NCBI GenBank assembly: GCA_019116445.1
Contig: DXBP01000032.1
Span: 1-61,218 of the forward strand
Source of the DNA: Candidatus Gemmiger excrementigallinarum
Lineage (GTDB): Bacteria; Bacillota; Clostridia; Oscillospirales; Ruminococcaceae
Direction of reading: 5' to 3'
DNA: 61,218 nucleotides
This document shows, in pieces, positions 6,926 through 29,074 of this stretch. Numbering within the stretch: the stretch's first letter is position 1; every line of letters begins with the position of its first letter. The position numbers were made by a program, and so were the translations under genes. A model generated the notes under the pieces. It was given only the letters and a program-made list of their open reading frames with translations. It did not search any database and was not told the DNA's origin.

Positions 6926-8113
6926 TCAATCTTCAGCAAAGCAGCAGTCCAGAACGGCGCGGGCCATTTTGGCACCACCCTTCCAGTTGGGATGCACGCC
7001 GTCGCCTAAATGCAGGCCGGCCTGCATACGGTGGGGATCGTCGGGGTCCCGCAGCACCGCATCCAGGTCCAGCACCTTGTCGGCAAGGCCGTCGGCCCGG
7101 ATCAGGTCATTGCAGGCGCAGCGCAGCGCCTCGGCCTGATCCCGCCAGACTTCCCCGAAGGCGCCGAAGGGCGGAATGGTGCAAAGGCAGACCCGACTGC
7201 CCCGGCGGTGGGCTATATCCACGACCTGGGTCAAGGCTCCGTAGATGTCCCGGGAGGAAGGAACATCCGGTTCATGGAAAACCAGGCTGTGGGAGCAGTC
7301 GTTGACCCCTTCCAGCACAAAGACAAGGTCGGGGGTCATGCCGTCATAGAGGTCCTGTACAAAGCGGTCCCGGCCGGCAATGCCGAACTGGTGCCCGCCA
7401 CCGGGAAAATTCCGGGCATCGGGAAAGGATTTCTGGATGCGGTTCCCGGCAATGCCGCCGTTGATCAGCGCGCATTTCCCGGGAAAGCGGCGGTACAGTT
7501 CCGCCAGCAAGCAGTCGCTGAAGTAGGACATCTGGGTGATGGAATCCCCGAACAACGCAACCAGCAAAGGCGAATCCTCGGCCAGCACCGAAACTTCGCT
7601 GAGTCCGGCGGCAAACTGGCAGGGGGTAGGGTCAGCCGCCAGGGCCGGGGCCAGTTGCTGCTGCAGGGTGAAGCCCAGAGGTTCCCCTGCAAAAAAGTTG
7701 CCGGTGTGGTGGGTGCTTTGCCAGCTGTGCCAGGTGCTTGTGGTGCAGACCGAGCGGAATACGGTCTTTTGGCCGAAATACTGCCAGACCAGCAGATCGT
7801 CCTCCGGGGTGACCGGAAGGAAAATTTCATCGGAGCAGGGCCTGGCATTGGGGGCTACCCGGATCTGCCGGTTGCCGTTGAGGGTGACGGCAACCGGGGA
7901 AGACTGCCTGCCGGTGAGCCGGTTACAGGTCGCTACGGCCACGTGCTCCATGGTAACGGGCCGGTCGTTGTAGAGGTTGCTGAACCGGATACGAACCTTG
8001 CTGCCCCGCAGATTGTTGGTGAACAGGCAGCGCTGGGTAATGTTTTCAAATACGGCAAGGTCCTGGTTATAGTCCGGCGATACGCAGTGCCATGCCGGGG
8101 TCCACTGATTCAT
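6926..8113 (-). CDS. SGNH/GDSL-family esterase, two-domain
   Basis: 395 aa from ATG 8113 (AAAGGA 9 bases upstream); longer readings overlap the preceding gene without a ribosome site. Residues 1-165 form a beta-rich domain, often substrate-binding in such enzymes. Residues 180-395 form the SGNH hydrolase: LFGDSITQ (Ser about 191), GGIAGNRI, EGVNDCSHS (Asn block) and DGVHPNWKG (catalytic Asp and His). Related enzymes deacetylate carbohydrates. There is no signal peptide, so it acts in the cytoplasm. It is the last gene of the long esterase operon, 61 bp after the preceding gene. The fold and active site are clear; the substrate is not. Confidence 0.88.
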   Translation of the reverse strand: MNQWTPAWHCVSPDYNQDLAVFENITQRCLFTNNLRGSKVRIRFSNLYNDRPVTMEHVAVATCNRLTGRQSSPVAVTLNGNRQIRVAPNARPCSDEIFLPVTPEDDLLVWQYFGQKTVFRSVCTTSTWHSWQSTHHTGNFFAGEPLGFTLQQQLAPALAADPTPCQFAAGLSEVSVLAEDSPLLVALFGDSITQMSYFSDCLLAELYRRFPGKCALINGGIAGNRIQKSFPDARNFPGGGHQFGIAGRDRFVQDLYDGMTPDLVFVLEGVNDCSHSLVFHEPDVPSSRDIYGALTQVVDIAHRRGSRVCLCTIPPFGAFGEVWRDQAEALRCACNDLIRADGLADKVLDLDAVLRDPDDPHRMQAGLHLGDGVHPNWKGGAKMARAVLDCCFAED

Positions 8114-8174
8114 GGTTTGCATCCTTTCTTGTGGGACGGGGCTGTTTGCCGGTAACGCTGCGGATAAGAGAAAA

Positions 8175-9632
8175 TCAGAGGAGCTGCTCTTTGAGGATCT
8201 CCGCCATAAAGGTGGAAAGCTCGGCAAAATGGTCGGTGGCATAGACGACCCCGTTGCAGACCGAAACATGAAGATTGAAAAGGAACCGGCAGAACCATTC
8301 CACGCTGACCATCAGTTCACCTTCCCGGTGCAGGGCTTCGCAGTACATGGCATAGAGATCGTCATCCACCAGGCAGCCGATCACGCCCCGGGAAATCTTT
8401 ACGGTGCGGCCGTCCGCCAGCTGCAGGGTGGCTTCCAGCCCGGTTTCATCGGTGGTGTAAGATGCCCCGAAAACCTCTGCCAGGAACCGCAGGCTGACGC
8501 AGAGGTATTCGCCCCGCACAAGCTGGCCGCCTTCCAGACCGTGGTACTTGAGTTTCTGCCACCACAACGGCGCCACGGGCATTTCCGTAGTGGTATTGTG
8601 GAACCAGGCTTTGCGGGTGCCGGGAGTCAGGGCCAGGGCAAAGCGGTCCCCTTCGGGGGCCAGGCGGGAAGGCTGCCGCACCAGGGTGCCGTCGGGGGCC
8701 CGCCGCACGCCCGAGAACAGGTAATTCCAGTAGTAAAAGGCTTCGTCCAGGGCCTGGCCGTGGTCCCGGTTCTTGATGTCCAGAAATACCAGGTCAGCTT
8801 TGTCGCCGGTGTAGAAGGCAAAGTTATCTTCCCCCACAATACGGATGCGGGGCGGGGTATGTACGCCATTGACTTTCATCCAGTATTCCCGGCCGCCTTT
8901 TTGGTCGGCGTTTTCCGCCTCAGGGGAATTGTCCATGCCGTTTTTCTCGGGGTGAGAAATCCACATGGGGACCGGGCCGCCCCAGTTGCGCAGGGAACCG
9001 TCATCGTTGTAAAGCTGGCTGTCTACTGCCGAAGCCCCCGAGCCGGCGGCACCGGCCAGCAGGTTGCCATAATACCGGGCAAACTGGTCGGTCATCATGT
9101 GGCCCATGCTCATGCCCTGCATATAAATGCGGCCGGGGTCGATATTGTAAGTTTCCTGCATCCGGCCGATCAGGGCTTTGACGTAGTTCAGGTCGTGGTT
9201 GTCGTGGTAATCCTCGGGGTCCACAGGCAGGGGCAGTACCAGTTGGGGATTGGCGCGCACACGGGCCTGCATCCCCTGGATGGTCCACATCTGCAGTTCG
9301 TGGCAGTCGGGAAATACACAGATGAATCCTTCCCGTTCGGCCAGCAGAGTCCAGGAACTGTATACCGCCTGGGCCCAGCCGTTCATCATACCGCCGTGGT
9401 TGCTCACCACCAGCGGTACAGGCCGGCTGCCATCGTAGCTGGTGGGGATATACTCGTACCAGCGGTCTTCCAGGCCGTCGGCCAGCACGCCGGTGCACTC
9501 CCGCAACCGGGCGGGATACACCTGGGAATTGTTTCCGTTTTCATTCACCGTCATATCGGTTCCCTTGATGCCCAGGGGAACATACTCCCGGTTGGCATCG
9601 TTGGGGGAACCGGCTTGCAATCGAAGACTCAT
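8175..9632 (-). CDS. CE1/PHB-depolymerase-like esterase with CuAO-like C-terminus, paralogue 1
   Basis: 485 aa, no signal peptide. The N-terminal signature shared by all five paralogues is VNENGNNSQVYPARL. An alpha/beta-hydrolase domain (about 55-310) follows, with the oxyanion region VVSNHGG, nucleophile QGMSMG (Ser about 175) and catalytic His in NRDHGQ (about 291). Residues about 360-470 resemble the copper-amine-oxidase N-terminal-like (stalk) domain: GEYLCVSLRFLAEVFGA, then ADGRTVKI, then VSVEWFCRFLF. Esterases of this class cleave feruloyl, acetyl or polyester bonds. It lies 9 bp after its upstream neighbour. The domain pairing in a cytoplasmic protein is unusual. Confidence 0.8.
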   Translation of the reverse strand: MSLRLQAGSPNDANREYVPLGIKGTDMTVNENGNNSQVYPARLRECTGVLADGLEDRWYEYIPTSYDGSRPVPLVVSNHGGMMNGWAQAVYSSWTLLAEREGFICVFPDCHELQMWTIQGMQARVRANPQLVLPLPVDPEDYHDNHDLNYVKALIGRMQETYNIDPGRIYMQGMSMGHMMTDQFARYYGNLLAGAAGSGASAVDSQLYNDDGSLRNWGGPVPMWISHPEKNGMDNSPEAENADQKGGREYWMKVNGVHTPPRIRIVGEDNFAFYTGDKADLVFLDIKNRDHGQALDEAFYYWNYLFSGVRRAPDGTLVRQPSRLAPEGDRFALALTPGTRKAWFHNTTTEMPVAPLWWQKLKYHGLEGGQLVRGEYLCVSLRFLAEVFGASYTTDETGLEATLQLADGRTVKISRGVIGCLVDDDLYAMYCEALHREGELMVSVEWFCRFLFNLHVSVCNGVVYATDHFAELSTFMAEILKEQLL

Positions 9633-9641
9633 ACATTCACC

Positions 9642-10511
9642 TCATTGAAACAGATAGGGCAGATAATGGTACAGATAGTTGCACACCGCTTCGTAGGCGT
9701 GCACTTCGCCTTCGGCTACCTGGTAATGCAGATTGCCCCGGGCGGGGTCCTCGTCAAAAGCAAAGACGTCAGGGTATTGGCGCATTTGCTGAATTTGCGG
9801 CGTCATGGCAGGGAAGGCTGCATCCGCGGTGCCGGTGGCTGCATAGATGCAAAAATCCAACCCGGCATCTTTTGCAGCTGCGGCGGCCTGGTACAGCAGT
9901 TCGGCGGTCCGGGTCGGATGCAGTTCACCGCCCTTGGTGCATACGGCCCAGCAGTCGCCGCTCAGCGGCAGGAAGGTGCGGAAATAGGCCAGATTCTGCA
10001 GGAAGTTATACCAGGTGGTACAGCTGCCCATGGAAAATCCGCCGAACCCGCGGTGTGCACGGGCGGCGCGCAGCCCCTGGTCCGAGGTATCGGTGAGGTA
10101 GGTGTTGTAGCGGCTTTCCACAGCGGGCAGCAGTTCAGCGGTTACCTCGGGCAGGAACTCCAGCACCTTGGTGCGCTCCACCTCGGCCACCGGCTCCCCT
10201 GTGCGGGAGATCTGCTCCTTGTAAAAGGAGGGGAACACCACGATCATCGGCGCAGCCACCCCTTCGGCAAAACAGTAGTCCAGCATATTCTTCACTTTGC
10301 AGCAGTCCAGCCAGGCGTCGGGGTTTCCGCCGCCGCCGTGCATCAGATAGAGCACATTGTATTTCTTTTGCCGGTCGGCGGCGTCATAGCCGTAGGGCAG
10401 ATAGACGTTGGCATACTTGGTCCGGGGTTCCCCCGCCGGGTTGGTGGTGGCGTAAGTTACGCGTTCCACCCGTCCGCGAAAATTCACGTCGTGGTACAGG
10501 TATTTTTCCAT
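9642..10511 (-). CDS. Esterase-D/CE1-family esterase (active site intact)
   Basis: 289 aa from ATG 10511 (AAAGGATGG upstream; the longer frame overlaps the preceding gene and lacks a start signal). Single alpha/beta-hydrolase domain: KYANVYLPYGYD, LYLMHGGGGN (oxyanion hole), GGFSMGS with Ser about 160, and a C-terminal His in GEVHAYEA. It resembles bacterial feruloyl/acetyl-xylan esterase domains of CE1 but has no secretion signal or carbohydrate-binding module, so it is probably cytosolic. It sits 46 bp downstream of paralogue 2 in the esterase operon. Its substrate is probably an acylated sugar, by context only. Confidence 0.85.
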   Translation of the reverse strand: MEKYLYHDVNFRGRVERVTYATTNPAGEPRTKYANVYLPYGYDAADRQKKYNVLYLMHGGGGNPDAWLDCCKVKNMLDYCFAEGVAAPMIVVFPSFYKEQISRTGEPVAEVERTKVLEFLPEVTAELLPAVESRYNTYLTDTSDQGLRAARAHRGFGGFSMGSCTTWYNFLQNLAYFRTFLPLSGDCWAVCTKGGELHPTRTAELLYQAAAAAKDAGLDFCIYAATGTADAAFPAMTPQIQQMRQYPDVFAFDEDPARGNLHYQVAEGEVHAYEAVCNYLYHYLPYLFQ

Positions 10512-10557
10512 CCCAAATCCATCCTTTCGCAATATGGTGCAGTGATTTTCGTCCGGC

Positions 10558-12063
10558 TCATACCATGCCGCGCTGTTCCTGCTCCCTGTCCAGCAGCAGG
10601 TCAGACAGCACCCATGCGGCATACCGGGAGAGCACGGCGTAATGGTCTGTGGCGTACAGGGTGTCGCCGTAGGCGGAAACGTGCCAGTTGTACAGCGCAG
10701 CACAGAACCACCGGGCCGGAATGTACAGTTTGCCCTCCACCGTAATGGCATCGCAGAGCATTGCCTCCACGGTATTGTCGATGGTGCAGCCGATGCAGCC
10801 GTGAGCAAAGGTCAGTTCCCGGCCATCGGCCAGGCGGATCGCAGCGGTATCGCCGTCTGCCAGTAGGGTGCCGCCGAAGGCTTCGGCCAGGAAAGCCACC
10901 GGTGCATAGAGATAGCTTCCGCGGACCAGGCTGTCGCCGTTCAGGCCGTGGTATTTGAGTTTGTCCCGGCGGAACACCTTGCCGCCAATGGGGGTGAGCT
11001 TGCCGTTGACCAGTGCCCGGGTCGCCCTTTCGGTCAGAGCCAGGGCGGCCTGGTCGGGGTGGAAGGTGCGGCGGGTGGGGGTGTGATGCACCACGCCGTC
11101 CGCCGTTTTGTAAACGCCTGAGAACAGGTAGTCCCAGACCATCTGGGCGTCGTCAAAGGTCTGGCCATGGTCCCGGTTGTGGACGTCCATCAGCATGACG
11201 TTGGCCTTTTTGCCGCGGTAGAACAGCAGGTTCTTTTCCCCCTGGATGTTGATTTCGGGCTGGCCCATGGCTTCGTTGAGCCGCCGCCAGTAGTTGATGT
11301 TACCCAGCACCACGGGCCGGTCGTCCTCGCCGTAATGGGGCGGGGTATGGTCAAACTCCAGCCGGGACTGCCAGATGTCCATGGGGCCGCCCACGTTCAG
11401 CAAGCGGTTGTCCTTGTCAAACAGCAGTTTGGGATTGGTGGGGCATCCGGACCCTGCCGCGGCGGCAAAATGTGCTCCCATATAGCGGGCTACCTGGCTG
11501 GTCATGGCATTGCCCATGCTCATGCCCTGGATATAGACGCGGCTCTCGTCGATGTTGTAATTCCGGCGCATCCGCTCCAGAAGTTTCATCACCATCCGCA
11601 CATCGTGGAACTGGTCCACTGTGCCTACGGGGCGGTTGAGCACCGGCACGCCGGGGTCCGCGGTGGTGGTGATCTGATCTACCGTTGCGCTGTCGCACTC
11701 GATCATCCACATACGGTTGGCGCTGGCGTTGGGAAAAACACAGATAAACCCTTCTTTGTCCGCCACATGGGTCCAGCTGGTGTAGATGCACTGTCCCCAG
11801 CCGGTCATCAGACCGCCGTGCATCGAAAAGACCAGCGGCGTTTTTTTGTTGGGATCGTAACTTTCGGGCACATATTCATACCACACGTCCAGGACGCCGT
11901 CCTCCAGCAGTTCCTCGGTATGTTCGGTCAACCGGGCGGGATATACCTGGGAGTTGTTGCCGTTCTCATTCACGACCATGCGGCTGCCTTTGATGGCGGG
12001 GGGCAGGTAATCCCGGTTTTCATCGTTGAGATCACCCGGCTGCAACAGGATTTTGTGTTCCAC
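10558..12063 (-). CDS. CE1/PHB-depolymerase-like esterase with CuAO-like C-terminus, paralogue 2
   Basis: 501 aa. Same build as the other four: VVNENGNNSQVYPARL near the N-terminus, SMHGGLMTGWGQ, nucleophile IQGMSMGNAM (Ser about 182), catalytic His in NRDHGQTFDDAQ, and a C-terminal stalk-like domain starting at LKYHGLNGDSLVRGSYLYA. It is the most divergent of the five. The usual NHGG is MHGG, the middle cap (SATVDQITTTADPG) has no match in the others, and the C-terminus carries an extra basic/acidic tail (DREQEQRGMV). That suggests a different acyl group or position. It has no signal peptide and follows the EstA-like gene by 54 bp. Confidence 0.8.
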   Translation of the reverse strand: MEHKILLQPGDLNDENRDYLPPAIKGSRMVVNENGNNSQVYPARLTEHTEELLEDGVLDVWYEYVPESYDPNKKTPLVFSMHGGLMTGWGQCIYTSWTHVADKEGFICVFPNASANRMWMIECDSATVDQITTTADPGVPVLNRPVGTVDQFHDVRMVMKLLERMRRNYNIDESRVYIQGMSMGNAMTSQVARYMGAHFAAAAGSGCPTNPKLLFDKDNRLLNVGGPMDIWQSRLEFDHTPPHYGEDDRPVVLGNINYWRRLNEAMGQPEINIQGEKNLLFYRGKKANVMLMDVHNRDHGQTFDDAQMVWDYLFSGVYKTADGVVHHTPTRRTFHPDQAALALTERATRALVNGKLTPIGGKVFRRDKLKYHGLNGDSLVRGSYLYAPVAFLAEAFGGTLLADGDTAAIRLADGRELTFAHGCIGCTIDNTVEAMLCDAITVEGKLYIPARWFCAALYNWHVSAYGDTLYATDHYAVLSRYAAWVLSDLLLDREQEQRGMV

Positions 12064-12117
12064 AATGATTTCTCCTTTTGGCTTTACCGGGGAAAGACCC
12101 CGGTGTTGGGGTGGTGG

Positions 12118-13224
12118 TCAGTTTTTCCGGTGAGAGAGCATCCAGTCCAGGATGCCGTATTCATTATGCAGCACCGGGATCCAGCTGTTGTGGTTTTCCA
12201 TATAAAGATCCCGGGCAGAAAGACCGGGGGTCAGGCCGATGCCGTAGGCCGCCAGTTCCTCCGGCGTAAACAGGGTAAAGCGAATATCCCTGCGGCCTTT
12301 TTCCCACAGCTTTTGCACGGCCCGCAGCAGATAGGCGTGGCGCGCGACCTGGTGGTCGATGTAAGCGGTGGCGATGTAGGCGGGCACATCGGGAAAGTTT
12401 TCCAGGATGGGATAACTTTCCCCGTTCATGCTGGGGCAGATGGGCACACAGGCGGTAAACAATTCCGGCGCCGAGGAAACGGCCTTGATGGTTCCGAAAC
12501 CGCCCATGCTCATGCCGATGGCGTAGACCCGGCGGGGGTCTACCTTGCCCTGGGCGATCATTCTGCGGATGACATCGCAGACCCGGCCCAGATAGGCGCG
12601 GTTCCAGCCCCGGTCGTTTCGGTCGTTGTCCGGGTCTGCGCCGATCTCCACCTTGTAGGGATCGCCTTTGGCACGCATTTTGGCAAACATTTCCTCCATG
12701 CTCAACCCGCCAGAAGGTGCCTGGGGCGCCAGAACATACAGATCGGGCAGGCGTTCGGCCAGCTTGATGGCACCAAGGGTATCGGTAAGCTGCAGCAGGT
12801 TGTCCTCACCGCTGCCCCCGCCGCCGTGCAGAAAAAGAATCAGCGGGCGGGGTTCGGTACATTCCGGTTCATACAGCCGGTAACGGACGCCGTTTTCCAC
12901 AACGGGGCGGAAAAGCTCCTCGTGGAACAGAGTAATACGGTCAGCGTTTTCTTTGGTGATGGTAAGGGGCAGCGCGGTGGAAACACACTGTACCGAAAAA
13001 TCGCAGCGCAGCAGAAAGGGGTCGGTGGCCAGTTCCAGGGTATTGCCCTGTTTTGCTACGGTCTTTACCCCGGAAATGGGGCGTACCGCGCCCAGGTCGT
13101 CATAACAATGGGTGCAGCGGAAGTCTGCCGGCTGCAGGTCGGGGGCTTCGGTATCCAGCTTTACGGTGATGCCGTCCACCATCTGGCCGAAATCTTCCAT
13201 TCGTGTGTGCAGTGTGATTTCCAT
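12118..13224 (-). CDS. EstA-like esterase with N-terminal Ig-like domain
   Basis: 368 aa. Residues 1-90 are beta-rich (VKLDTEAPDLQP, then TLELATDPF), matching the Ig-like N-terminal domain of EstA-type esterases. Residues 105-368 form an alpha/beta-hydrolase: LILFLHGGGGSG (oxyanion), nucleophile AIGMSMGG (Ser about 239), and a C-terminal MENHNSWIPV region holding the likely catalytic His. Thermostable EstA relatives act on short acyl esters and are often periplasmic, whereas this one has no signal peptide. It lies 15 bp after paralogue 3, so it is translated from the same long transcript. Confidence 0.85.
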   Translation of the reverse strand: MEITLHTRMEDFGQMVDGITVKLDTEAPDLQPADFRCTHCYDDLGAVRPISGVKTVAKQGNTLELATDPFLLRCDFSVQCVSTALPLTITKENADRITLFHEELFRPVVENGVRYRLYEPECTEPRPLILFLHGGGGSGEDNLLQLTDTLGAIKLAERLPDLYVLAPQAPSGGLSMEEMFAKMRAKGDPYKVEIGADPDNDRNDRGWNRAYLGRVCDVIRRMIAQGKVDPRRVYAIGMSMGGFGTIKAVSSAPELFTACVPICPSMNGESYPILENFPDVPAYIATAYIDHQVARHAYLLRAVQKLWEKGRRDIRFTLFTPEELAAYGIGLTPGLSARDLYMENHNSWIPVLHNEYGILDWMLSHRKN

Positions 13225-13239
13225 AACGTGCTCCTTTTC

Positions 13240-14742: not shown

Positions 14743-14757
14743 ATCGGCCGCCTCCCT

Positions 14758-15525
14758 TCAGTTCTGCATCAGCCATTCCACTGCAGCAGGCAGGCTGGTC
14801 TGGCAGGAACCCAGGTCGGCCCCGGTATCCAGTTCACGGGTCTGGGCGGCATCCCCCAGCAGAGTGGCCAGCCGGCGGTTTTCCCCGGCAAGGAGGCTTC
14901 CTTTTTCCCAGGTCATCCAGAATTTGCTGCCGGTGGGGCGGCAGGCCAGGGCATACAGGTCGTTTTCACTGCCGTGGAAGGTATCCAGCGAACCGAACAC
15001 CGCCTCCAGGGAGGCTTTGTTGTGGCAGATGCCGGTATCCTCCCCGGCGGCAGCCTTCTGGCAGAGTGCTTCCAGGTCCAGCACGCCGTTGAGAGATACC
15101 GCACGGGAGAAGGTTCCGGGATATTTGAGCGCCATTTTAACCGCGCCGTAAGCGCCGGTACCCACGCCGCCGATCCAGTTCAGAGCGGGATCGTCCGACA
15201 GGGGCAGATTGTTGCGGCAGATCCCCGGAAGTTCGGTGCTCATGAATACTTCGTACCGGGGACCATACTTCATGTTGGTGCAAAGGCTGTGGTGCTGGTC
15301 GGGGGCGATGATAAAAATGCCGTACCGGGCGGCGCAGCGCTCTGCCGGAGTGGCAAGCCAGTCCAGGGCGGCGCCGCCCTCGGTGTGCAGCAGCCACAGA
15401 ACAGGATATTTTTTCTGGTGGTCTTTGTCGTTCAGGTCCAGCAGGTTCATCTCGGGCAGAAAGACCCGGGCAGAAAAAGACCCGCAGGTGATGACCGACA
15501 GTGCATTCATTTCAATTTGTGCCAT
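14758..15525 (-). CDS. Catalytically dead esterase-D-like protein (Ser to Gly), copy A
   Basis: 255 aa. The esterase-D fold is recognisable: MNALSVITCGSFSARVFLPE, YPVLWLLHTEGG, then WIGGVGTGAYGAVKMALKYP. Where active relatives have AGFSMGGYG, this protein has GGVGTGAYG, so the nucleophile is Gly about 122. The C-terminal GxHxW block holding the catalytic His is also gone (GADLGSCQ instead). The rest is well kept and the gene is intact, so this looks like a maintained pseudoenzyme, not a decaying gene. It directly follows an active paralogue (15541-16368), an arrangement repeated at 25576-27163. A partner or scaffold role is inferred. Confidence 0.8.
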   Translation of the reverse strand: MAQIEMNALSVITCGSFSARVFLPEMNLLDLNDKDHQKKYPVLWLLHTEGGAALDWLATPAERCAARYGIFIIAPDQHHSLCTNMKYGPRYEVFMSTELPGICRNNLPLSDDPALNWIGGVGTGAYGAVKMALKYPGTFSRAVSLNGVLDLEALCQKAAAGEDTGICHNKASLEAVFGSLDTFHGSENDLYALACRPTGSKFWMTWEKGSLLAGENRRLATLLGDAAQTRELDTGADLGSCQTSLPAAVEWLMQN

Positions 15526-21630: not shown

Positions 21631-21638
21631 AACAAACC

Positions 21639-23165
21639 TCACTTTTCAAGTTTCAGGGCGTCGTAGTCCGGAAGAACGCCTCCGCCGCGCAGAAGATCGC
21701 GGATCAGGTCGGCCATATTGCAGGAAAGTTCGGCAAAATGGTCGGTGGCATATACAACGCCGTCACATTCGCTGACCGTCATGTGGAACAGCGCACGGCA
21801 GAACCATTCGATGCTCACCAGCAACTGCCCTTCGCGGTGCAGGGCCTCGCAGTACATACTGCGCAGGTCGTTGTCGATCAGGCAGCCGATGCTGCCCCGG
21901 GCAAACTGCAGCCGGCGTCCGTCTGCAAGTTGCATCTCGGCGGTCAGGGTATCCGCAGCGTAACACAGCGCAGCCCCGAAAAACTCTGCCAGCAGGGAAA
22001 GTGGTACCATGCAGTAGCGGCCGTTGACTTTCTGGCCGCCATTGAGGCCGTGGTATTTCAGCTTTTCCCAGGGGCGGGCGGCTGCGGTCATGGGTCGGAT
22101 GCAGTTGTTCACCCAGGCGTTGGTGCAGTCCGTGGCCACGGCCAGGGCACGGCTGTCGCCAGTACGGGGCAGATTGCCCGGCCCGCAAACCACGGTGCCG
22201 TCCGCCTTGCGGCGTGTGCCGGAAAACAGGTAGTTCCAGACCAGGGCGGCATCGTCCAGGGTTTGGCCATGGTCCCGGTTCTTGATGTCCAGGTAGACCA
22301 TGTCTGCTTTTTCCCCGTGGTAAAAAGCCAGATTGTTTTCGCCCTCAATGCGGATCTGCGGTATCGGGCTGCAGCCGTTGCGTTTCATCCAGTAGTAGCG
22401 GTTGTACTTGTTCACGTAGAGGGAATCTGCTTTGACGGGGGGAATGTCGTTGTTTTCTGGCCGGGATTGCCATACCGGCAGGCAGGGGTCCCCGTTTTTC
22501 AGTGTGCCGTCGGGGGTAAAAAGCTGGTCGGTGAAGGTGGAACAGCCGGACCCGGCAGCCCCGGCCAGAAGATGGGCGAACTGGCGGGCGAAAAGGGAGG
22601 TCATCAGGTTGCCCATGGACATACCCTGCAGGTAGATCCGCTCGGGATCGATGTTGTATTTTTGCTCCATCCGCCGGATCACGCCAAGGATCCGCTGTAC
22701 GTCGTAATTTTCCAGGTCATCATCGGGTGCCTGGGCGGCTTCCGGGGGTGGGGCTTCGTTTTCGTGCGTGCCGTCGGAACCGTCAAAGCGCCATTGGCCC
22801 CACTTGACGCACCAGACCCGTTTGCGGCAGGCATCGGGAAAGGCAACGATAAAACCGTGAACTTCGGCCATCATGGTCCAGGAAGTGTATATGGCCTGGC
22901 CCCAGCCGGTCATCATGCCGCCGTGAAGCGAAACCACCAGCGGGGTCTTTTGCGTGGAGTCGTAACTGGCAGGCACGTACTCATACCAGGTGTCGGAGGC
23001 GCCGCCGGGGGTCAGGGCTTCGTGAAATTCTTTCAGCCGTGGGGGATAGGGTTGGGAGTTGTTGCCGTTTTCGTTGACAACGATGTCGCTGCCTTTGATT
23101 TTTTCCGGCAGGTATTCCCGGTTGTTGTCATCGGGGGTGCCTGCACGCAGAAGGATTTCCTGCAT
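21639..23165 (-). CDS. CE1/PHB-depolymerase-like esterase with CuAO-like C-terminus, paralogue 5
   Basis: 508 aa. RAGTPDDNNREYLPEKIKGS and VNENGNNSQPYPPRL identify the family. Esterase domain: SLHGGMMTGWGQ, nucleophile LQGMSMGNLM (Ser about 183), NRDHGQTLDDAA with the catalytic His. It has a longer acidic cap insert than its siblings (about 125-152, with EAPPPEAAQAPDDD), likely to change access to the active site. The C-terminal domain starts near GGQKVNGRYCMVPLSLLAE. No signal peptide. It follows an esterase-D-like gene by 18 bp. Confidence 0.8.
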   Translation of the reverse strand: MQEILLRAGTPDDNNREYLPEKIKGSDIVVNENGNNSQPYPPRLKEFHEALTPGGASDTWYEYVPASYDSTQKTPLVVSLHGGMMTGWGQAIYTSWTMMAEVHGFIVAFPDACRKRVWCVKWGQWRFDGSDGTHENEAPPPEAAQAPDDDLENYDVQRILGVIRRMEQKYNIDPERIYLQGMSMGNLMTSLFARQFAHLLAGAAGSGCSTFTDQLFTPDGTLKNGDPCLPVWQSRPENNDIPPVKADSLYVNKYNRYYWMKRNGCSPIPQIRIEGENNLAFYHGEKADMVYLDIKNRDHGQTLDDAALVWNYLFSGTRRKADGTVVCGPGNLPRTGDSRALAVATDCTNAWVNNCIRPMTAAARPWEKLKYHGLNGGQKVNGRYCMVPLSLLAEFFGAALCYAADTLTAEMQLADGRRLQFARGSIGCLIDNDLRSMYCEALHREGQLLVSIEWFCRALFHMTVSECDGVVYATDHFAELSCNMADLIRDLLRGGGVLPDYDALKLEK

Positions 23166-23183
23166 ATCGTCTGCCTCCCTGCC

Positions 23184-24020
23184 TCAGAACGGATTGCCGC
23201 CGTTTTCGGTCAGGCCAAAGAAGGTAAGAGCCTCCTGAATGGCCAGGTCCCAAAACCGCCACTCGTGTTTGTAGCCTGGGCGGGTGAACCAGTAGGCATC
23301 CAGGCCGATTTGCTCCGCATGGGTCCTGAATTCGCAGAACAGTTTGTACAGCAGGGCGTCATCCTCTCCGCAGGCAAACATCAGGCGGGGCAATTCCCCG
23401 GTGCGGGCTTTCTCGTCCAGGATGGCCCAGACGTTTTCGTTGGAATGCAGGAAGGCATCCAGCCCGCCCGCGTTGAGCAGGGTGGTGCGGGTACGCTCGT
23501 CGTTGGTGTTCAGCATGGGGCAGCTGTTGTCGGGCGTCATCCGGGTCAGATCCATAGGGATGGCAGACAGTACTGCCGCAGCTGCAAATTTTTCGGGATG
23601 ATTTACCGCGTATTTGATGGTGCCCCGGCCGCCCATACTCAGCCCGGCAATGAAGTTGTCCTCCCGGCGGGAAGAAACCGGCAGCCAGCCGTAGACCAGC
23701 GGCATCAGTTCTTCGGTGAGGTAATCGTACATATTGAAGCCCAGCATGAAGTCTTTCCAGTTGGAGTAGTTGGAGTTCAGGGCCGAGGGCATCACTACCA
23801 CAAGATTCTTTTCGGCGGCATACATTTCGATGTTGGTTTTGCGCACCCAGTCGGTGTGGTCACCGTAGGTGCCGTGGAGCAGCCACAGCACCTTGTACTT
23901 TTTGCCGCTGCCGTAGAAGTCCGCCGGTGTTACGCCGCGGGGCTTGTCCGGCAGGATCACGGTGATCTGGGTGTTGTTGTTCAGATACTGGCTTTCGTAG
24001 GTGTAGGTCAGAATAGACAT
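23184..24020 (-). CDS. Esterase-D-like esterase (active site intact)
   Basis: 278 aa from ATG 24020 (GGGAGGAG upstream); the longer frame has no ribosome site. Alpha/beta-hydrolase: YLNNNTQITVILPDKPRGVT, VLWLLHGTYGDHTDW, nucleophile FIAGLSMGGRGTIKYA (Ser about 128), an Asp in ACGEDDALLY and the catalytic His in PGYKHEWRFWD. It belongs to the same broad family as 15541-16368 but is a distinct branch, without the ADRPxDYRYP signature. A 99-bp gap containing a hairpin separates it from the sucrose phosphorylase gene. Confidence 0.87.
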   Translation of the reverse strand: MSILTYTYESQYLNNNTQITVILPDKPRGVTPADFYGSGKKYKVLWLLHGTYGDHTDWVRKTNIEMYAAEKNLVVVMPSALNSNYSNWKDFMLGFNMYDYLTEELMPLVYGWLPVSSRREDNFIAGLSMGGRGTIKYAVNHPEKFAAAAVLSAIPMDLTRMTPDNSCPMLNTNDERTRTTLLNAGGLDAFLHSNENVWAILDEKARTGELPRLMFACGEDDALLYKLFCEFRTHAEQIGLDAYWFTRPGYKHEWRFWDLAIQEALTFFGLTENGGNPF

Positions 24021-24063
24021 GGCGGCTCCTCCCGTTGGTTTTTCTTTTGGGTCGATCATTGCC

Positions 24064-24100
24064 CCGGGCCGCCGATCTGTTCCTCACAGCGGCGGCCCGG
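24064..24100 (-). promoter_or_regulatory. Intra-operon GC hairpin after sucrose phosphorylase
   Basis: The arms CCGGGCCGCCG (24064-24074) and CGGCGGCCCGG (24090-24100) form an 11-bp perfect stem in the only sizeable gap near the start of the operon. No T run follows on the minus strand, so it looks like an mRNA-stability or processing element that sets upstream and downstream expression apart, not a terminator. Confidence 0.45.
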
Positions 24101-24119
24101 TTCTGGCAGATATGCAGGT

Positions 24120-25589
24120 TCAGCTTTCCTGGCGGAAGCGTTCGGTAACGGTATCCCCCTTGCGTTCGGTGATCCGGAAGCATTTGTCTTTGAAGTCGGC
24201 GTCCAGGGTGGCGGCGCAGTCACCATTGCGCCAGGTGATATGCAGCATACCGTTGCTGCCGTCCTGGTCGATCTCGATGGTGCCGTTGAAGGCGGGGCAG
24301 CTGTTGCGGAACCGCAGCAGTTCCAGCAGCTGCTGCACCACCGGCTTTTGTGCCGCAGCCCGGATCTCGGGTTCGGTGAAGGAATGGCGGTTGACGGTAC
24401 GGGGATCGGTGTCGTTTTTTACACCCTCGATGTCGTTTTCGCCCGCCAGCAGGCCCACGTAGTACACCTGGGGTGTGCCCGGGGCAAAGAACTGCACCGC
24501 GCGGGCCAGCAGATAGGCCCGGTCATCGCAGCCCAGGGCCGAATAATAGGTGGTCATCATCTGGTACCGCTGGACCGGTTTGCCCGGTACCCGCACCACG
24601 GTGGGGAAGGGGATGTAGGGCTTGACGTCAGCAGTCAGACGGTCTACCAGTTCCTGGGTGGCGTCGATCTCTTCCTCGGTAAGCAGCCCTGCTACATCCA
24701 CCAGGCCGATGCCGTCGTGGGTATCCAGGGTGGTGAACTGCTTGCGGGGGCAGATGTTGAGCCAATGGATCAGCCGGTCGGTACGGCCGAAGTGCAGCCC
24801 GTGGAGCAGCAGCATCGGCAGAGCAAAGTCGTAGACCCAATAGCCCTTTTCGGCCATTTTTTGCTGGATGGTGTAGTTTTCATGGATCTCGGGCAGCATT
24901 TCGGCACCTGCCTCCCGCAACGGTTTCATGCCGATTTCCAGCACCTCCCAGATTTTCGGTTCCACAAAGAAGCAGGAAGTACCCGGCTCTTTGGAAGCGT
25001 AGGCAAAAGCGTCAAAGCGGACCAGAGGCACATGGGAAGCCAGGCGGCTCAGGTTGCGGCGGTAGTATTCCTGCGTGGGTTTGGCGTAGGGGTCAATGTC
25101 GATCTGTTCGCCAAAGAAGGTGTTCCACAGCCGGACCTGTTTGCCGTCTTTCCGGGTAAAGGTCAGGTAGGGGCCGCCGTCCTTGCGGCGGTACAGGGCG
25201 CTCAGTTCCGCTTCGGTAGGTTCCCCGTTGGGCCAGAAGGTGTCCCAGTGGATGAACATATCCTTGTAGGCGGAAGCATCGCCTTTCTCCATATAATCGC
25301 GGAATTCCTCGCTGCGGATGGAAACGTGGTTGAGCATGAAATCCGCCATCAGGTAGTAGCGGCTCCCCAGGCGGTCGATGTCCTCCCAGGTGCCGAATTC
25401 CGGCGCCACGGTGTCATAGTGGATGACCGCAAACCCGCGATCCCCCGAGGAGGGGAAGAAGGGCAGCACGTGTACGCCGCCAAAGGCATCGGGAAAATAT
25501 TGGTCCAGTACACGGTCCAGCTGTTTCAGGTCGCCGCCTAGGGTGTCGGCGTAGGTGATCAGCATGGCTTTGTTTTCAATTTTTTTCAT
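24120..25589 (-). CDS. gtfA: Sucrose phosphorylase (GH13_18)
   Basis: 489 aa from ATG 25589 (AAAGGA upstream), the normal length. It converts sucrose and phosphate to glucose-1-phosphate and fructose. Visible GH13_18 features: AMLITYADTLGGDLK, GGVHVLPFFPSSGDRGF, nucleophile Asp in RFDAFAYA, acid/base Glu in LPEIHENYT, transition-state Asp in LDTHDGIGLVDV, and VYYVGLLAGENDIE. It reads closely like streptococcal GtfA as I remember it. It is cytoplasmic and overlaps the 3' end of a serine-less esterase gene by 14 bp, so it is translationally coupled into the esterase operon. It is the only sugar-bond enzyme in the run and therefore points to sucrose as the core of the esterase substrates. A related GH13_18 specificity (glucosylglycerol or sucrose-6-phosphate) is possible. 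Confidence 0.92.
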   Translation of the reverse strand: MKKIENKAMLITYADTLGGDLKQLDRVLDQYFPDAFGGVHVLPFFPSSGDRGFAVIHYDTVAPEFGTWEDIDRLGSRYYLMADFMLNHVSIRSEEFRDYMEKGDASAYKDMFIHWDTFWPNGEPTEAELSALYRRKDGGPYLTFTRKDGKQVRLWNTFFGEQIDIDPYAKPTQEYYRRNLSRLASHVPLVRFDAFAYASKEPGTSCFFVEPKIWEVLEIGMKPLREAGAEMLPEIHENYTIQQKMAEKGYWVYDFALPMLLLHGLHFGRTDRLIHWLNICPRKQFTTLDTHDGIGLVDVAGLLTEEEIDATQELVDRLTADVKPYIPFPTVVRVPGKPVQRYQMMTTYYSALGCDDRAYLLARAVQFFAPGTPQVYYVGLLAGENDIEGVKNDTDPRTVNRHSFTEPEIRAAAQKPVVQQLLELLRFRNSCPAFNGTIEIDQDGSNGMLHITWRNGDCAATLDADFKDKCFRITERKGDTVTERFRQES

Positions 25590-26316
25590 GGCAGTCCTTT
25601 CCTTCATCACACAGCCAGCGCAGGCCGGCATCCCAAAGGGCTTCGGGGGTTCCGCCCAGGCAGGCCATGGTCTTGCACCGGTTGGCAAGATGCAGGCTGT
25701 CCTCCAGGGCGGGGAAATCTTCCTCACAGCCGATAAACAGTTCTTTCGGAGCGGGAGCTCCGGGGCGCAAAATATCCAGCCCGGAACCCCGTACGCCCTG
25801 CAGATCACCGAAAACCGCTTCCAGGTTGGGGCGGGTCAGGTGGGGCAGCGCCTCGCCCCGGGCCGCGGCTTCGCACAGGGCGGCTGCGTCAAACCGGCCG
25901 TTGACCACCATGCACTTGGCAAAGGCTTCAGGGTGGTTTGCGGCGTTCCAATATGCACCGTACGCGCCGCCGCCCGTGCCGCCCACATACTGGTGGAGGG
26001 GGTCCAACGGGAACAGGTGCCGGCAGATTCCGGGCAGTTCCCGGCGGACGAAGTCACCATACTTGCCGCCCCAGGGCAGGTCCATGCCGAAGGAGTGCAT
26101 CAGGGCGGGGCAGATGACAAACAGGCCCAGTTCGTTGCACAGCGCCTCCAGATTGTGCAGGGGGCGCAGGTCGGTGTCGTTGCCCCCGATGTCGTGCAGG
26201 AAGTACAGCGCCGGGTAGCTTTTTGTTTCCATCCGGGGCTGGTCGGGGAAGAACACCGTTGCCGAAAAACTTCCGCTGAGAGCGGTGGAAAGCGCGTTCA
26301 GTTCCAATACAGCCAT
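25576..26316 (-). CDS. Catalytically dead esterase-D-like protein (Ser to Gly), copy B
   Basis: 246 aa from ATG 26316 (GGAGGATC upstream). Paralogue of 14758-15525: MAVLELNALSTALSGSFSAT matches MAQIEMNALSVITCGSFSAR. The nucleophile elbow is VGGTGGGAYGAYWNA, with Gly about 115 in place of Ser. The C-terminal His block is missing (CLGGTPEALWDAGLRWL). It starts 1 bp after its active partner B and overlaps the sucrose phosphorylase start by 14 bp. The intact frame and the repeated pairing argue for a selected non-catalytic role, for example as a subunit. Confidence 0.8.
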   Translation of the reverse strand: MAVLELNALSTALSGSFSATVFFPDQPRMETKSYPALYFLHDIGGNDTDLRPLHNLEALCNELGLFVICPALMHSFGMDLPWGGKYGDFVRRELPGICRHLFPLDPLHQYVGGTGGGAYGAYWNAANHPEAFAKCMVVNGRFDAAALCEAAARGEALPHLTRPNLEAVFGDLQGVRGSGLDILRPGAPAPKELFIGCEEDFPALEDSLHLANRCKTMACLGGTPEALWDAGLRWLCDEGKDCHEKN

Positions 26317-26317
26317 C

Positions 26318-27163
26318 TTACTGATCCTCCATAATGTACACACTGTGAAGTGGGATCCAGTCCAGGAAGGCGGCAATGTGACGGTTGCAGTACACCCAGT
26401 CGTGCATACCCTGGTCACGGACCTCGTGCACATCCACGCCCAGTTCCTTCATGTAATCCATCACAGCGTAGCCGTCCTGGGCACCGGGGTCCTGGGCCCC
26501 TATGGCCATATAGAACCGGGGCAGATCGGTGCCTGCCTTTACGTGGTTTTCCAGCATATAAAGGTTGTCGTCGGGGGTGTTGCGCCGCGTGGCCGCCGAA
26601 CCAAAGGCGGCCCACAGGGTGGCAAAGGGCGGCTCGCAAAAGTCATCCCGCAGGCAAGGCTGGCCCAGCTTTTCATCGGGCGCTACCGGCGTTCTGGGGA
26701 TCAGGCCGATGGGCCCGGAAAAGTTCCCGCAGGCGGCGAACATTTCGGGGCGCTGCATGGCAAACTTGAAGGCGCCGTAGCCACCCATGGAGAAGCCGGC
26801 CACGAAGTTGTCCTCCCGCCGGAGGGAGAGGGGGAACACTTTGGTCAGATATTCGGGCAGCTCGTAGGCAATCTGATCCCACCAGCGGTAGTCGCCCTCG
26901 GCGGTGTTTACGTACCCGCAGTACGAGATGCCGGGCAGCACTACGGCAATGCCGTGTTTGGCAGCATACAGTTCCAGGGCCGTGTAGCGGAGCCAGTCGG
27001 TGTGGTCAAAGCCACCGCCGCACAGCAGCCACAGGGTGGGATAGCGGTAATCGGCGGGGCGGTCTGCCAGGGAATAGCCCCATTTGTTTTCGGGGATGAT
27101 AACACACACGCCCATCTTCTGCTGCATTGCCTGGGAGTAGTAATCAATTTTGCACAGTGCCAT
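26318..27163 (-). CDS. Esterase-D-like esterase, active partner B
   Basis: 281 aa. Clear paralogue of 15541-16368: VCVIIPENKWGYSLADRPAD, TLWLLCGGGFDHTDWLRYTA, nucleophile VAGFSMGGYG (Ser about 125), Asp in GAQDPGAQDG, catalytic His in QGMHDWVYCNRHI. It is the first enzyme gene of the operon after the permeases, 33 bp downstream, and its stop is 1 bp from the start of dead copy B, so the two are probably made in equal amounts. Cytoplasmic; substrate unknown but presumably the imported ester. Confidence 0.87.
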   Translation of the reverse strand: MALCKIDYYSQAMQQKMGVCVIIPENKWGYSLADRPADYRYPTLWLLCGGGFDHTDWLRYTALELYAAKHGIAVVLPGISYCGYVNTAEGDYRWWDQIAYELPEYLTKVFPLSLRREDNFVAGFSMGGYGAFKFAMQRPEMFAACGNFSGPIGLIPRTPVAPDEKLGQPCLRDDFCEPPFATLWAAFGSAATRRNTPDDNLYMLENHVKAGTDLPRFYMAIGAQDPGAQDGYAVMDYMKELGVDVHEVRDQGMHDWVYCNRHIAAFLDWIPLHSVYIMEDQ

Positions 27164-27196
27164 GAGTCATTCTCCTTTTATGGTACGGCAGAAGGC

Positions 27197-28078
27197 TCAG
27201 CCTTTCACTGAACCCAGCGTGATACCCTTGACGAAGTATTTCTGGAAGAAGGGGTAGGCGACCAGCAGCGGGATCACCGCGATGACGGCAATGGCCATGC
27301 GCACACTGGTGCTGGGGATGTCGGCGGCGCTGATATTTCCGGTTACATGGGACTGCAGGAAGGCCGCTTTGTTCATTACGTCATTGAGGTAGTTCTGGAT
27401 ACCGTACAGGTCGGTCCGGGTGGTCAGGAAGTAGATGCCGTTAGTCCAGTTGTTCCAGTAGGAAATCAGGGTCATCAGGCTTACGGTGGCAATGATGGGC
27501 TTGCTCATGGGGATGACGATTCTTACCAGGGCCTGGGTTTCGGTGGCGCCGTCGATCTTGGCGGCCTCAATGACTTCGTTGGGCACGCTGGAGGTAAAAT
27601 AGGTACGCATCATAATGACCAGGAAGGGGTTGAGCAGCAGATAGGGGATGATCATGCCCCAGATGGAATCCTTGACGTTGATGATGTTGGTGTAGACCAG
27701 GTAGGTGGGCACCAGGCCGCCGTTGAACAGCATGGGGATGAACAAAATCAACGAAAAGACGTTGCGGCCGGGCAGATCGCTGCGGGACAGGGGATAGGCG
27801 AAAAGAATGGTCATGACCACGTTGGCAGTAACGCCGATGGCGGCGATGATCACACTCATAAGGTAGGCGCGGCCGATGGACCCGCGGGCGTTCCACAGGT
27901 ATTCATAGGCGCCCAGGCTGAATTCCCGGGGGAACATGGAGTAGCCGTTTTGCACCAGCGAGGTTTCGGAGGTGAAGGAGCTGGCAATCAGCAGCCAGAA
28001 AGGTACCAGGCAGGCCAGGACCAGAAAAATCAGCAGGGCATTAAAGAAAATGCTGTAGGCTTTGTTGTTGTTGATCAT
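27197..28078 (-). CDS. Carbohydrate ABC transporter permease, LplC/YtcP-like
   Basis: 293 aa, six predicted membrane spans. The EAA loop reads EVIEAAKIDGATETQALVRI, followed by the conserved IPMSKP. The C-terminus PFFQKYFVKGITLGSVKG is typical of LplC-type permeases that import oligosaccharides. Its partner is the preceding LplB-like gene (15 bp gap). The matching binding protein is divergent at 29383, and no ATPase is in the window. That is normal for this class, which often shares one MsmK-type ATPase. Confidence 0.93.
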   Translation of the reverse strand: MINNNKAYSIFFNALLIFLVLACLVPFWLLIASSFTSETSLVQNGYSMFPREFSLGAYEYLWNARGSIGRAYLMSVIIAAIGVTANVVMTILFAYPLSRSDLPGRNVFSLILFIPMLFNGGLVPTYLVYTNIINVKDSIWGMIIPYLLLNPFLVIMMRTYFTSSVPNEVIEAAKIDGATETQALVRIVIPMSKPIIATVSLMTLISYWNNWTNGIYFLTTRTDLYGIQNYLNDVMNKAAFLQSHVTGNISAADIPSTSVRMAIAVIAVIPLLVAYPFFQKYFVKGITLGSVKG

Positions 28079-28093
28079 TGTATGTTTCCTCCC

Positions 28094-29074
28094 TTAGAAC
28101 AGGGCGCTGTCCCGGTCGATTTTGGAAACCAGGGTGTTGGCCGTAAATACCAGGACAAAGCCCAGTATGGACTGCAGGAAGCCTGCGGCGGAGGAACGTC
28201 CCACGTCGTTGAGTTCCAGCAGCGCGCGGTAGACGAAGGTGTCGATGGTTTGGGTGGTGGAATACAGCATACCGCTGTGCTGCGGAATCTGGTAGAATAG
28301 ACCAAAGTCGGAGTAGCAGATGCGGCCTACCGCAAGCAGTACCAGGGTAATGATGGTGAACTTCAGGCCGGGCAGGGTGACATAAATGATCTGCTGCCAG
28401 GTGGAGGCACCGTCGATAACCGCGGCCTCATACAGCGAACGGTCGATGCTGATGAGGGTGGAGTAATACAGGATCGAGTTGTAGCCGAAGGACATCCACA
28501 GGTAAACGATGGTGATGATGACCGGCCAGTACTCCGGTTCGTTGTACCATTTGATGGGCTCCTCAATACCCAGCAGCGGAAGGATGGAATTGTTCATGAA
28601 ACCGGTGGTGGGGCTGAGGAAGGCGAACACGATGTAGCTGATGATAACGGTGGACAGAAGGAAAGGAATCAGAATAACAATCTGGCTGAACCGCCGCAAA
28701 AACTTGCTGGCAACGCAGTCCAGCGCAATGGCTACCACGATGGCCAGCAAATTGCCGAACACAATGAAGCCGAGGTTATATAAAATAGTATTGCGCATGG
28801 CGTACAGGGCGTCGTTGTTGCTGAACAGGTAGGTGAAGTTGCTCAGCCCCGCCCACGGGCTGCCGAAGATGCCCAGGGAGTAATCGATTTTTTTAAAGGC
28901 GATGATCAGGCCGGTCATCGGCAGATAGTTATTGATGAGCAGATACAAAAGGCCCGGCAGCAACATTATGTAAAAGGGGAAATACTGCAGGATGCGCCGC
29001 CGCGTACGGCTGCGTTTGCGCTGCTTTTCCAGGTCGGACAGCGCGGGTTTGCGTTTTTTAAGGGTACGTTCCAT
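28094..29074 (-). CDS. Carbohydrate ABC transporter permease, LplB-like
   Basis: 326 aa from ATG 29074 (GGAGG upstream; the in-frame ATG at 29089 lacks one). A basic N-tail (LKKRKPALSDLEKQRKRSR) precedes six spans. The EAA loop is SLYEAAVIDGASTWQQIIYV followed by LPGLK. LplB-type proteins form the heterodimeric channel with LplC. It is the first gene of the 22-kb operon and is read from the promoter at 29137-29175. Confidence 0.93.
   Translation of the reverse strand: MERTLKKRKPALSDLEKQRKRSRTRRRILQYFPFYIMLLPGLLYLLINNYLPMTGLIIAFKKIDYSLGIFGSPWAGLSNFTYLFSNNDALYAMRNTILYNLGFIVFGNLLAIVVAIALDCVASKFLRRFSQIVILIPFLLSTVIISYIVFAFLSPTTGFMNNSILPLLGIEEPIKWYNEPEYWPVIITIVYLWMSFGYNSILYYSTLISIDRSLYEAAVIDGASTWQQIIYVTLPGLKFTIITLVLLAVGRICYSDFGLFYQIPQHSGMLYSTTQTIDTFVYRALLELNDVGRSSAAGFLQSILGFVLVFTANTLVSKIDRDSALF

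Follow-up and report, generated by a model that had tools for sequence, protein, structure and literature searches.

The DNA analysed here (the window) is a 61,218-nucleotide stretch of Candidatus Gemmiger excrementigallinarum, which is the entire contig DXBP01000032.1 of a draft genome (2.38 Mb, 83% complete). Positions 6926-29074 of its minus strand hold one uninterrupted run of 19 genes, numbered from g19 at its start to g1 at its end, which encode two sugar ATP-binding cassette (ABC) permeases, one GH13_18 phosphorylase (g15) and 16 hydrolase-fold proteins. A first-pass annotation had counted 18 genes and fifteen esterase-type proteins; these numbers had to be corrected, whereas the layout that it described, an esterase set around a phosphorylase and two permeases in a single minus-strand run with short gaps and a terminator, was borne out. 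The 18 intergenic gaps range from -14 to 99 bp, and 16 of them are below 60 bp, in line with the earlier description. The -14 bp gap is an overlap of g16 with the start of the phosphorylase gene, and the single strong terminator, a stem of 14-16 pairs that can be read both ways, lies directly past g1.

Gene models are codon-scored calls, and the chosen starts have ribosome-binding-like motifs; the start of b1, a divergent gene for a solute-binding protein, was also set by such a motif. The initial automatic set of open reading frames (ORFs) followed shadow frames in this window of 60% G+C and was discarded. Searches of the window gave no Rfam match at the gathering threshold and no tRNA.

Hydrolase families of the run

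The 16 hydrolases comprise five members of a family that we call A1 (g2, g4, g6, g12, g13), seven proteins of the esterase D/CE1 type (PF00756: g3, g7, g8, g9, g14, g16, g17), an alpha/beta hydrolase (g5), a two-domain protein of polyhydroxybutyrate (PHB) depolymerase type (g10), a beta-lactamase-fold protein (g11) and an SGNH hydrolase (g1). None of them appears to carry a signal peptide, as previously proposed: in a Kyte-Doolittle scan of the N-termini, the maximum hydropathy over 11 residues within the first 35 was at most 1.46 in the 16 hydrolases, compared with 2.25 in b1. Besides g15, the Pfam search found no glycoside hydrolase in the run. The earlier statement to this effect thus holds for the run, but not for the window, where a GH32 gene lies 24 kb away (scrB_fam 354.9 bits, just below the cutoff of 356.4).

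Pfam matches are entirely lacking for g6 and g12, which were placed by homology and fold. The other A1 proteins g2, g4, g6 and g13 are 47-64% identical to g12; since the five copies are paralogues, we do not count them as five independent findings. The predicted fold of g12 is closest, in its catalytic part, to acetyl xylan and feruloyl esterases and to PHB depolymerase (TM-score by query 0.31-0.39), while its score against TIGR01840 (PHB depolymerase) is 54.5 bits, below the curated cutoff of 107.85. A1 therefore shares the catalytic-part fold and the GxSxG motif with PHB depolymerase-like and CE1 esterases, and differs from them in its sub-cutoff scores, in an additional conserved C-terminal domain and in an N-terminus that is not hydrophobic.

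The gene order m1-b1-g19...g3, where m1 is a divergent transporter gene, is identical in the nearest named relative, an uncultured Gemmiger metagenome-assembled genome (MAG; locus L023), whose stretch stops at g3. The ratio of non-synonymous to synonymous substitution rates (dN/dS) against this relative is 0.04-0.28 across the 19 compared genes (g3-g19, b1 and m1), indicating purifying selection.

The phosphorylase belongs to an esterase-linked clade

The product of g15 scores 605 bits against TIGR03852, the sucrose phosphorylase model (cutoff 334). We placed it in a tree of 84 enzymes (LG+G4, quick search) from which the columns of the acceptor loop A, 4 short rows, 23 loci repeating genomes already included and exact duplicates had been removed. 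The 39 esterase-linked rows formed one clade (SH-aLRT 99), sister to the canonical sucrose phosphorylases (27 rows, support 90). The catalytic Asp/Glu/Asp residues are invariant in all 39 clade rows, and the same holds for both residues of the YQ pair (Tyr, Gln) and for the histidine of PEIH. Fourteen other columns separate the clade from the canonical enzymes, each group being at least 85% uniform, and loop A averages 25 residues with a net charge of +3.7 in the clade versus 20 residues and +0.7 in the canonical group.

Loop A is described as the specificity fingerprint of GH13_18 (PMC7178133): sucrose goes with N(L/V)D(I/L/V)YQ, sucrose 6F-phosphate with GFDVHQ and KXXYYQ, glucosylglycerol with VGAIYQ, and glucosylglycerate with (T/S)ETN plus a loop Glu. 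The g15 loop matches none of these fingerprints as given there; in place of the glucosylglycerate-type ETN and loop Glu, g15 has PEIHENY and YQ. The name sucrose phosphorylase, used in the first-pass annotation, is thus supported by subfamily and by the TIGR03852 pass, but not by the loop, and because the sucrose motif is missing from it, a sucrose core is something that we infer. In summary, g15 resembles canonical sucrose phosphorylases in its model score, its catalytic residues and its neighbouring position in the tree, and is unlike them in the motif and length of loop A, in the 14 columns, in having no equivalent of Asp342 and in its esterase linkage.

A strict sucrose 6F-phosphate phosphorylase (SPP) was also considered for g15, prompted by the KxxYYQ letters in a related locus (L050), and was rejected by the tree: L050, the only clade member matching KXXYYQ by letters, sits inside the esterase-linked clade. 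As a separate observation, three GH13_18 enzymes outside the clade (loci L148, L152 and L154, from genomes G854, G722 and G595) also have a loop A that fits no fingerprint given in PMC7178133.

Esterases and phosphorylase are linked across phyla

A scan of named genomes for A1 gave 119 confirmed stretches, the best 80 of which, in 58 loci, form our locus set. In the source's own family, 11 of 197 genomes, the source genome included, gave any A1 match at 0.001, and the best-scoring match outside the source genome in this draw was 34% identical. A clade-type phosphorylase lies within the retrieved stretch in 34 of the 58 A1 loci, a canonical one only in 1/58 (L068), and neither in 23/58, among which L034 has an SPP type and several are short contigs. 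Several loci share one genome and many hosts are draft MAGs, so these counts refer to loci and not to independent events. At the genome level, 37 of the 46 A1 genomes searched, which account for all loci except L033, carry the clade-type enzyme (at least 59% identity). The claim that esterases and phosphorylase belong to one system is thus supported by the synteny comparison that the first-pass annotation had suggested.

Among the 34 loci with a clade-type phosphorylase, relatives of the esterase D gene g14 occur in 32, of the ABC permeases in 29, and of either ABC or major facilitator superfamily (MFS) transporters in 32. For example, g14 and A1 lie immediately upstream of the phosphorylase in L191-L193. 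The core set of phosphorylase, A1, g14 and transporter is shared by genomes of Bacillota, Chloroflexota and Actinomycetota, and A1 hosts include Lachnospiraceae, Oscillospiraceae, Paenibacillaceae, Anaerolineae, Actinomyces, Cellulomonas and Microbacteriaceae. Among viral contigs, 99 stretches fitted a pattern, none of which encodes an A1 relative. Two apparent fusions were set aside as linkage evidence: an esterase D and a clade phosphorylase in one 776-residue open frame (L051, 15104-17434), which may be a natural fusion but also a single-genome stop loss or an assembly fault, and a phosphorylase-esterase fusion in L049, which is frameshifted.

To avoid the bias of searching by A1 first, we also drew genomes by the phosphorylase alone, from the source's class (391 genomes), the families of G605 (348), G614 (225) and G627 (179), the genus of G610 (51) and the phylum of G586 (151). 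With the source genome excluded, A1 was present in 7/7 genomes with a clade-type phosphorylase and in 1/34 genomes with other GH13_18 enzymes, namely 1/18 in the 348-genome set (G845; A1 cutoff 1e-90) and 0/16 elsewhere (cutoff 1e-40). The pooled Fisher value is 3.6e-7; in the 348-genome set, where the clade enzyme occurs in 4 genomes, A1 in 6 and both in 4, the hypergeometric value is 2.5e-8, and these p-values ignore shared ancestry. In the class draw, 18 other genomes had GH13_18 enzymes, of which 7 were searched for A1. Over all draws, A1 accompanied the clade enzyme in 15/15 genomes, which we do not take as independent support because 11 of them are the source genome or were already in the A1 scan. 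Four genomes were new (G945, G1032, G1167 and G1098) and all had A1, the other three of the seven being already listed; in G945, the A1 copy has an internal stop and lies on a different contig from the phosphorylase.

The canonical enzymes gave the opposite picture. Homologues of the window's esterases were found in 0/11 canonical phosphorylase neighbourhoods (14-19.5 kb; tblastn 1e-8), and the loop motifs separated nine Paenibacillaceae controls cleanly from three new clade members. G605 holds both types: its canonical copy (L206) has no esterase homologues nearby, whereas its clade-type copy (L048) is esterase-linked. These results strongly support a joint pathway of the esterases and the clade-type phosphorylase.

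Active and serine-less esterases occur in pairs

Within the esterase D/CE1 set, the GxSxG nucleophile is present in g3, g8, g14 and g17, and absent in g7, g9 and g16, where the motif reads GVGTG, GYAMG and GTGGG, respectively. The fifteen esterase-type proteins of the first-pass annotation thus included proteins without a nucleophile, and its picture of acyl groups stripped position by position by all of them is too simple as stated, since three hydrolases have lost this residue.

The loss is conserved. Among relatives of at least 38% identity and at least 75% of the length, the serine is missing in 14/14 of the g7 type, 18/18 of the g9 type and 3/3 of the g16 type. Purifying selection acts on all three genes (dN/dS 0.16-0.28 relative to L023), and the predicted structure of g7 has an esterase fold (mean predicted local distance difference test score 88.6), whose nearest matches are a marine esterase (4rgy) and the FphF/EstA group. 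Moreover, g16 shares 40% identity with g7 and g17 shares 44% with g8, so that the window holds two copies of a pair of an active and a dead protein. Of 18 dead proteins of the g7/g16 type in relatives, 17 adjoin an active one on the same strand; the single unpaired one is the first gene of its retrieved stretch. Because both the adjacency and the serine loss are conserved, g8/g7 and g17/g16 probably act as mixed complexes of an active and a serine-less subunit; alternatively, the serine-less partners might serve to hold the substrate.

Proposed pathway and its alternatives

Sucrose is suggested as the core of the substrate by loci in which other enzymes stand near A1. In L068, a canonical sucrose phosphorylase (NLDIYQ; TIGR03852 768 bits; canonical clade in the tree) occupies the slot beside g18, and its genome (G620) is without a clade-type enzyme. 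In L034 (14993-18492) and L062 (13103-16613), a P-loop-kinase-like ORF, a strict-SPP-type gene and a g3 esterase lie together near A1. The SPP-type gene of L062 is split over two frames; the kinase label comes from a P-loop noted by eye and, for the L034 copy, a Zeta_toxin match under the threshold, and for the L062 copy Pfam and PDB gave nothing firm. Two recognised sucrose-splitting types, in addition to the clade enzyme, thus occur at such loci, which is indirect evidence for a sucrose core from one or two cases each.

We therefore propose, with a probability of roughly 60%, that the locus encodes the import and breakdown of acylated sucrose, by deacylation in the cytoplasm followed by phosphorolysis. 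The solute-binding protein b1 and the permeases g18 and g19 would import the intact acyl-sucrose, and the cytoplasmic esterases of the A1, esterase D, PHB, SGNH and beta-lactamase-fold types would strip its acyl groups, with g8/g7 and g17/g16 presumably operating as mixed complexes. Finally, phosphorolysis by g15 would release glucose 1-phosphate, together with fructose from free sucrose or with acyl-fructose from sucrose that keeps an acyl group on its fructose. The neighbouring two-component system would probably sense the substrate.

The order of the steps is suggested by the enzyme family. The glucosyl site of GH13_18 rejects even minor modification, while the acceptor site is plastic (PMC7178133); acyl groups on the glucose side would thus have to go first, and those on the fructose side may stay. 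Such an order fits the fate of tenuifoliside A, an acylated sucrose that gut flora, through unnamed bacteria, reportedly degrades in vitro and in mice via carboxylesterase activity (PMC12652610). Its breakdown in vitro takes place within 4 h, and the products include p-hydroxybenzoate, from the glucose side, and glomeratose A, a fructose-acylated sucrose intermediate that keeps the fructose-side group alone (PMC12652610, PMC6273327). The agreement is by analogy, these genes not being involved there. A bolder form of our proposal, in which the rebuilt acceptor loop gives a new GH13_18 specificity for fructose-acylated sucrose, as part of a widespread pathway fed by mixed active and serine-less esterase complexes, is possible but rather doubtful.

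Several observations weigh against a sucrose core or against a fixed partnership with the phosphorylase. Loop A of g15 reads GKPVQRYQ, and the sucrose motif occurs in 0/39 clade rows compared with 27/27 canonical rows; a counterpart of Asp342, the residue binding the fructosyl O4, is likewise absent in the clade, and the basic loop may point to a charged acceptor. Replacement by a canonical enzyme was seen in one locus (L068), and since SPP and clade types occur together in L062 and also in the L034 genome, the clade enzyme need not be the one that splits free sucrose. No fructokinase was found in the run, and the acyl type and the transport specificity are not readable from DNA. Loci L024 and L025 keep a big esterase run without a phosphorylase inside, the enzyme being on another contig in the genome of L024 and absent from that of L025. 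Many A1 loci come from draft MAGs. Related loci without phosphorylase had been foreseen as telling against the sucrose link, and they exist in part, 9 of the 46 A1 genomes being without the clade-type enzyme; a replacement by xylan enzymes was not seen among the neighbours tallied below. GH32 is clear in seven of these nine genomes, matched weakly and in part in another (G600) and missing from the last (G619); because GH32 is common, we do not use it as support.

The longer, basic loop without the sucrose motif might instead mean that the same sequence of import, deacylation and phosphorolysis acts on a different alpha-glucoside, such as one of glycerol, glycerate or a polyol in acylated or acidic form, since in a family where loop A is the fingerprint (PMC7178133) a new fingerprint suggests a new acceptor. 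We regard this as unlikely: the fingerprints for glucosylglycerol (VGAIYQ) and glucosylglycerate (ETN, loop Glu) are both absent, the clade adjoins the canonical sucrose phosphorylases in the tree, the same slot is taken by a canonical enzyme in L068, an SPP type lies in L034 and L062, and the YQ and PEIH residues are kept throughout the clade.

The neighbours of A1 bear on a different possibility, namely that the esterases serve acylated xylan or pectin oligosaccharides or mixed dietary esters, with the phosphorylase as a separate sucrose gene of the operon. In keeping with the proposed deacylation, A1 loci also carry the esterase families SASA, Abhydrolase_3/BD-FAE and COesterase; polysaccharide-deacetylase-like proteins occur as well. 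We tallied 97 proteins from phosphorylase-less loci and 112 from phosphorylase loci, out of 343 unlabelled neighbours; their commonest families include COesterase, BD-FAE/Abhydrolase_3 and regulators. Among the 25 commonest families of the 110 and 152 found in these two sets, no glycoside hydrolase family reached at least 3 neighbours; single GH42, GH39 and arabinofuranosidase genes occur in L049, L070 and L061. This tally, a run in which Pfam finds no xylan or pectin hydrolase, and a link to the esterases that holds in several phyla while staying specific to a single clade of the phosphorylase make this reading quite improbable. In its favour, the nearest folds of g12 are those of a PHB depolymerase and of esterases for acetyl xylan and feruloyl groups, the esterase run of some relatives contains no phosphorylase, and the Xua operon of R. 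cellulolyticum does deacylate imported xylo-oligosaccharides inside the cell (PMC11127375).

Plant acyl-sugars act as surfactants or antimicrobials, and a mainly protective role can be imagined in which the esterases and the MFS pump m1 chiefly remove their toxicity, sugar use being secondary. The many esterases of broad type would suit this role, as would the weak similarity of m1 to drug and aromatic-acid transporters; in L193 and L080, an MFS protein is the only recognised transporter beside A1, g14 and the phosphorylase. Detoxification is nevertheless very improbable to us, given that ABC permease relatives accompany the clade phosphorylase in most of its loci and that a phosphorylase is a catabolic, energy-saving enzyme. 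Overall, the joint system is well supported, and acylated sucrose is our best guess for its substrate.

Divergent genes and wider window

The system continues beyond position 29074 with divergent plus-strand genes at 29383-34846, which include b1 and m1 (Table 1). They are followed by the two-component system, probably the regulator of the locus, and by a polysaccharide-deacetylase-like gene.

Table 1. Coordinates of the gene run and of the adjoining divergent and regulatory genes.
Feature	Position	Strand	Remarks
Intrinsic terminator	6873..6908	-	end of run, bidirectional
g1 SGNH/GDSL hydrolase	6926..8113	-	PF13472; GDS motif at residue 189
g2 A1-family esterase	8175..9632	-	PHB-depolymerase-like core, C-terminal domain
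g3 esterase D/CE1-like	9642..10511	-	PF00756; serine present
g4 A1-family esterase	10558..12063	-	
g5 alpha/beta hydrolase	12118..13224	-	Peptidase_S9/esterase type; GMSMG serine
g6 A1-family esterase	13240..14742	-	
g7 pseudo-esterase	14758..15525	-	esterase fold; GVGTG instead of nucleophile serine
g8 active-type esterase D	15541..16368	-	partner of g7
g9 pseudo-esterase	16385..17266	-	Ser->Ala (GYAMG)
g10 two-domain esterase	17273..18898	-	N-half GIGTG without serine; C-half PHB-type GFSNG
g11 beta-lactamase-fold esterase	18911..20080	-	PF00144; SASK motif; nearest PDB chains named esterases
g12 A1-family esterase	20107..21630	-	
g13 A1-family esterase	21639..23165	-	
g14 esterase D	23184..24020	-	conserved phosphorylase companion in relatives
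g15 GH13_18 phosphorylase	24120..25589	-	uncharacterised clade; variant acceptor loop A
g16 pseudo-esterase	25576..26316	-	GTGGG; related to g7
g17 active-type esterase D	26318..27163	-	partner of g16; related to g8
g18 sugar ABC permease	27197..28078	-	PF00528
g19 sugar ABC permease	28094..29074	-	PF00528
Divergent promoter region	29075..29382		308 bp
b1 solute-binding protein	29383..30909	+	lipoprotein type (DUF3502)
m1 MFS transporter	31041..32231	+	
s1 beta-lactamase-fold hydrolase	32231..33745	+	
s2 SGNH esterase	33758..34846	+	CE2 N-terminal domain
Two-component system	34898..38259	-	AraC-type response regulator, histidine kinase; relatives of both recur in A1 loci
Polysaccharide-deacetylase-like protein	38472..39335	-	relatives recur in A1 loci

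On the other side of the run, just outside the cluster, a plus-strand gene at 2087-4327 encodes a lipoprotein-like relative of tannases (tannase_A 127.6 bits, below the cutoff of 550; PDB tannases at ~1e-17), a candidate further ester-cleaving enzyme. Between them, a minus-strand gene at 5180-6588 that by eye resembles a phosphotransferase system EIIBC gene is broken across all three frames and adjoins a YdjC-like gene (4390-5151). A second sugar operon at 52536-61218 contains a scrB-like GH32 gene (53585-55054) and, cut by the window edge, the first part of a pfkB kinase gene; the genes between them, named by eye only, would encode a lipoprotein, a LacI regulator and two ABC permeases. The plus-strand gene at 50493-52268 resembles, by eye, one for an oleate hydratase.

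Significance and comparison with known systems

Acylated sucroses are numerous in plants: compounds 28-120 of one review have a sucrose core, with C-6 of glucose and C-3 of fructose as frequent ester positions, and the groups listed include acetyl, benzoyl and hydroxycinnamoyl (PMC6273327). The authors of the tenuifoliside A study call for work with single bacteria (PMC12652610), and the loci described here supply candidate genes and cultured hosts for the breakdown of such compounds in the gut; glomeratose A is exactly the type of compound relevant to the clade enzyme. The recurrence of the core set in distant bacteria suggests an undescribed route for eating plant sucrose masked by acids. 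Among the titles listed in our literature searches (up to 20 per search), whose coverage left out most subscription journals, there was no paper on such a bacterial system. For enzymology, the gain is a GH13_18 clade, so far uncharacterised, whose acceptor fingerprint can be read, together with clear conserved pseudo-esterases beside active ones.

Two known systems come close. The Rgaga1 cluster of Ruminococcus gnavus, like this locus, belongs to a member of the Bacillota and combines an ABC transporter, a regulator and a GH13_18 enzyme (PMC6521584). The enzyme of that cluster is a sucrose 6F-phosphate phosphorylase, and an alpha-galactosidase/sucrose kinase stands where this locus has esterases; the word esterase has 0 occurrences in the main text of PMC6521584. 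The Xua system of Ruminiclostridium cellulolyticum, in which intracellular acetyl and feruloyl esterases act on imported arabinoxylo-oligosaccharides, shares ABC import, cytoplasmic esterases encoded in an operon and two-component regulation with this locus (PMC11127375). The same features are seen here in an importer (g18, g19, b1) that adjoins the esterases and in N-termini whose hydropathy scan shows no signal-peptide-like stretch, whereas Pfam finds none of the xylan backbone hydrolases of Xua in the run. The two systems thus differ in what accompanies the esterases: Xua, as described in that source, combines two esterases with GH51, GH43, GH8 and GH39 enzymes, and the present locus combines 16 hydrolase-fold proteins with a GH13_18 phosphorylase.

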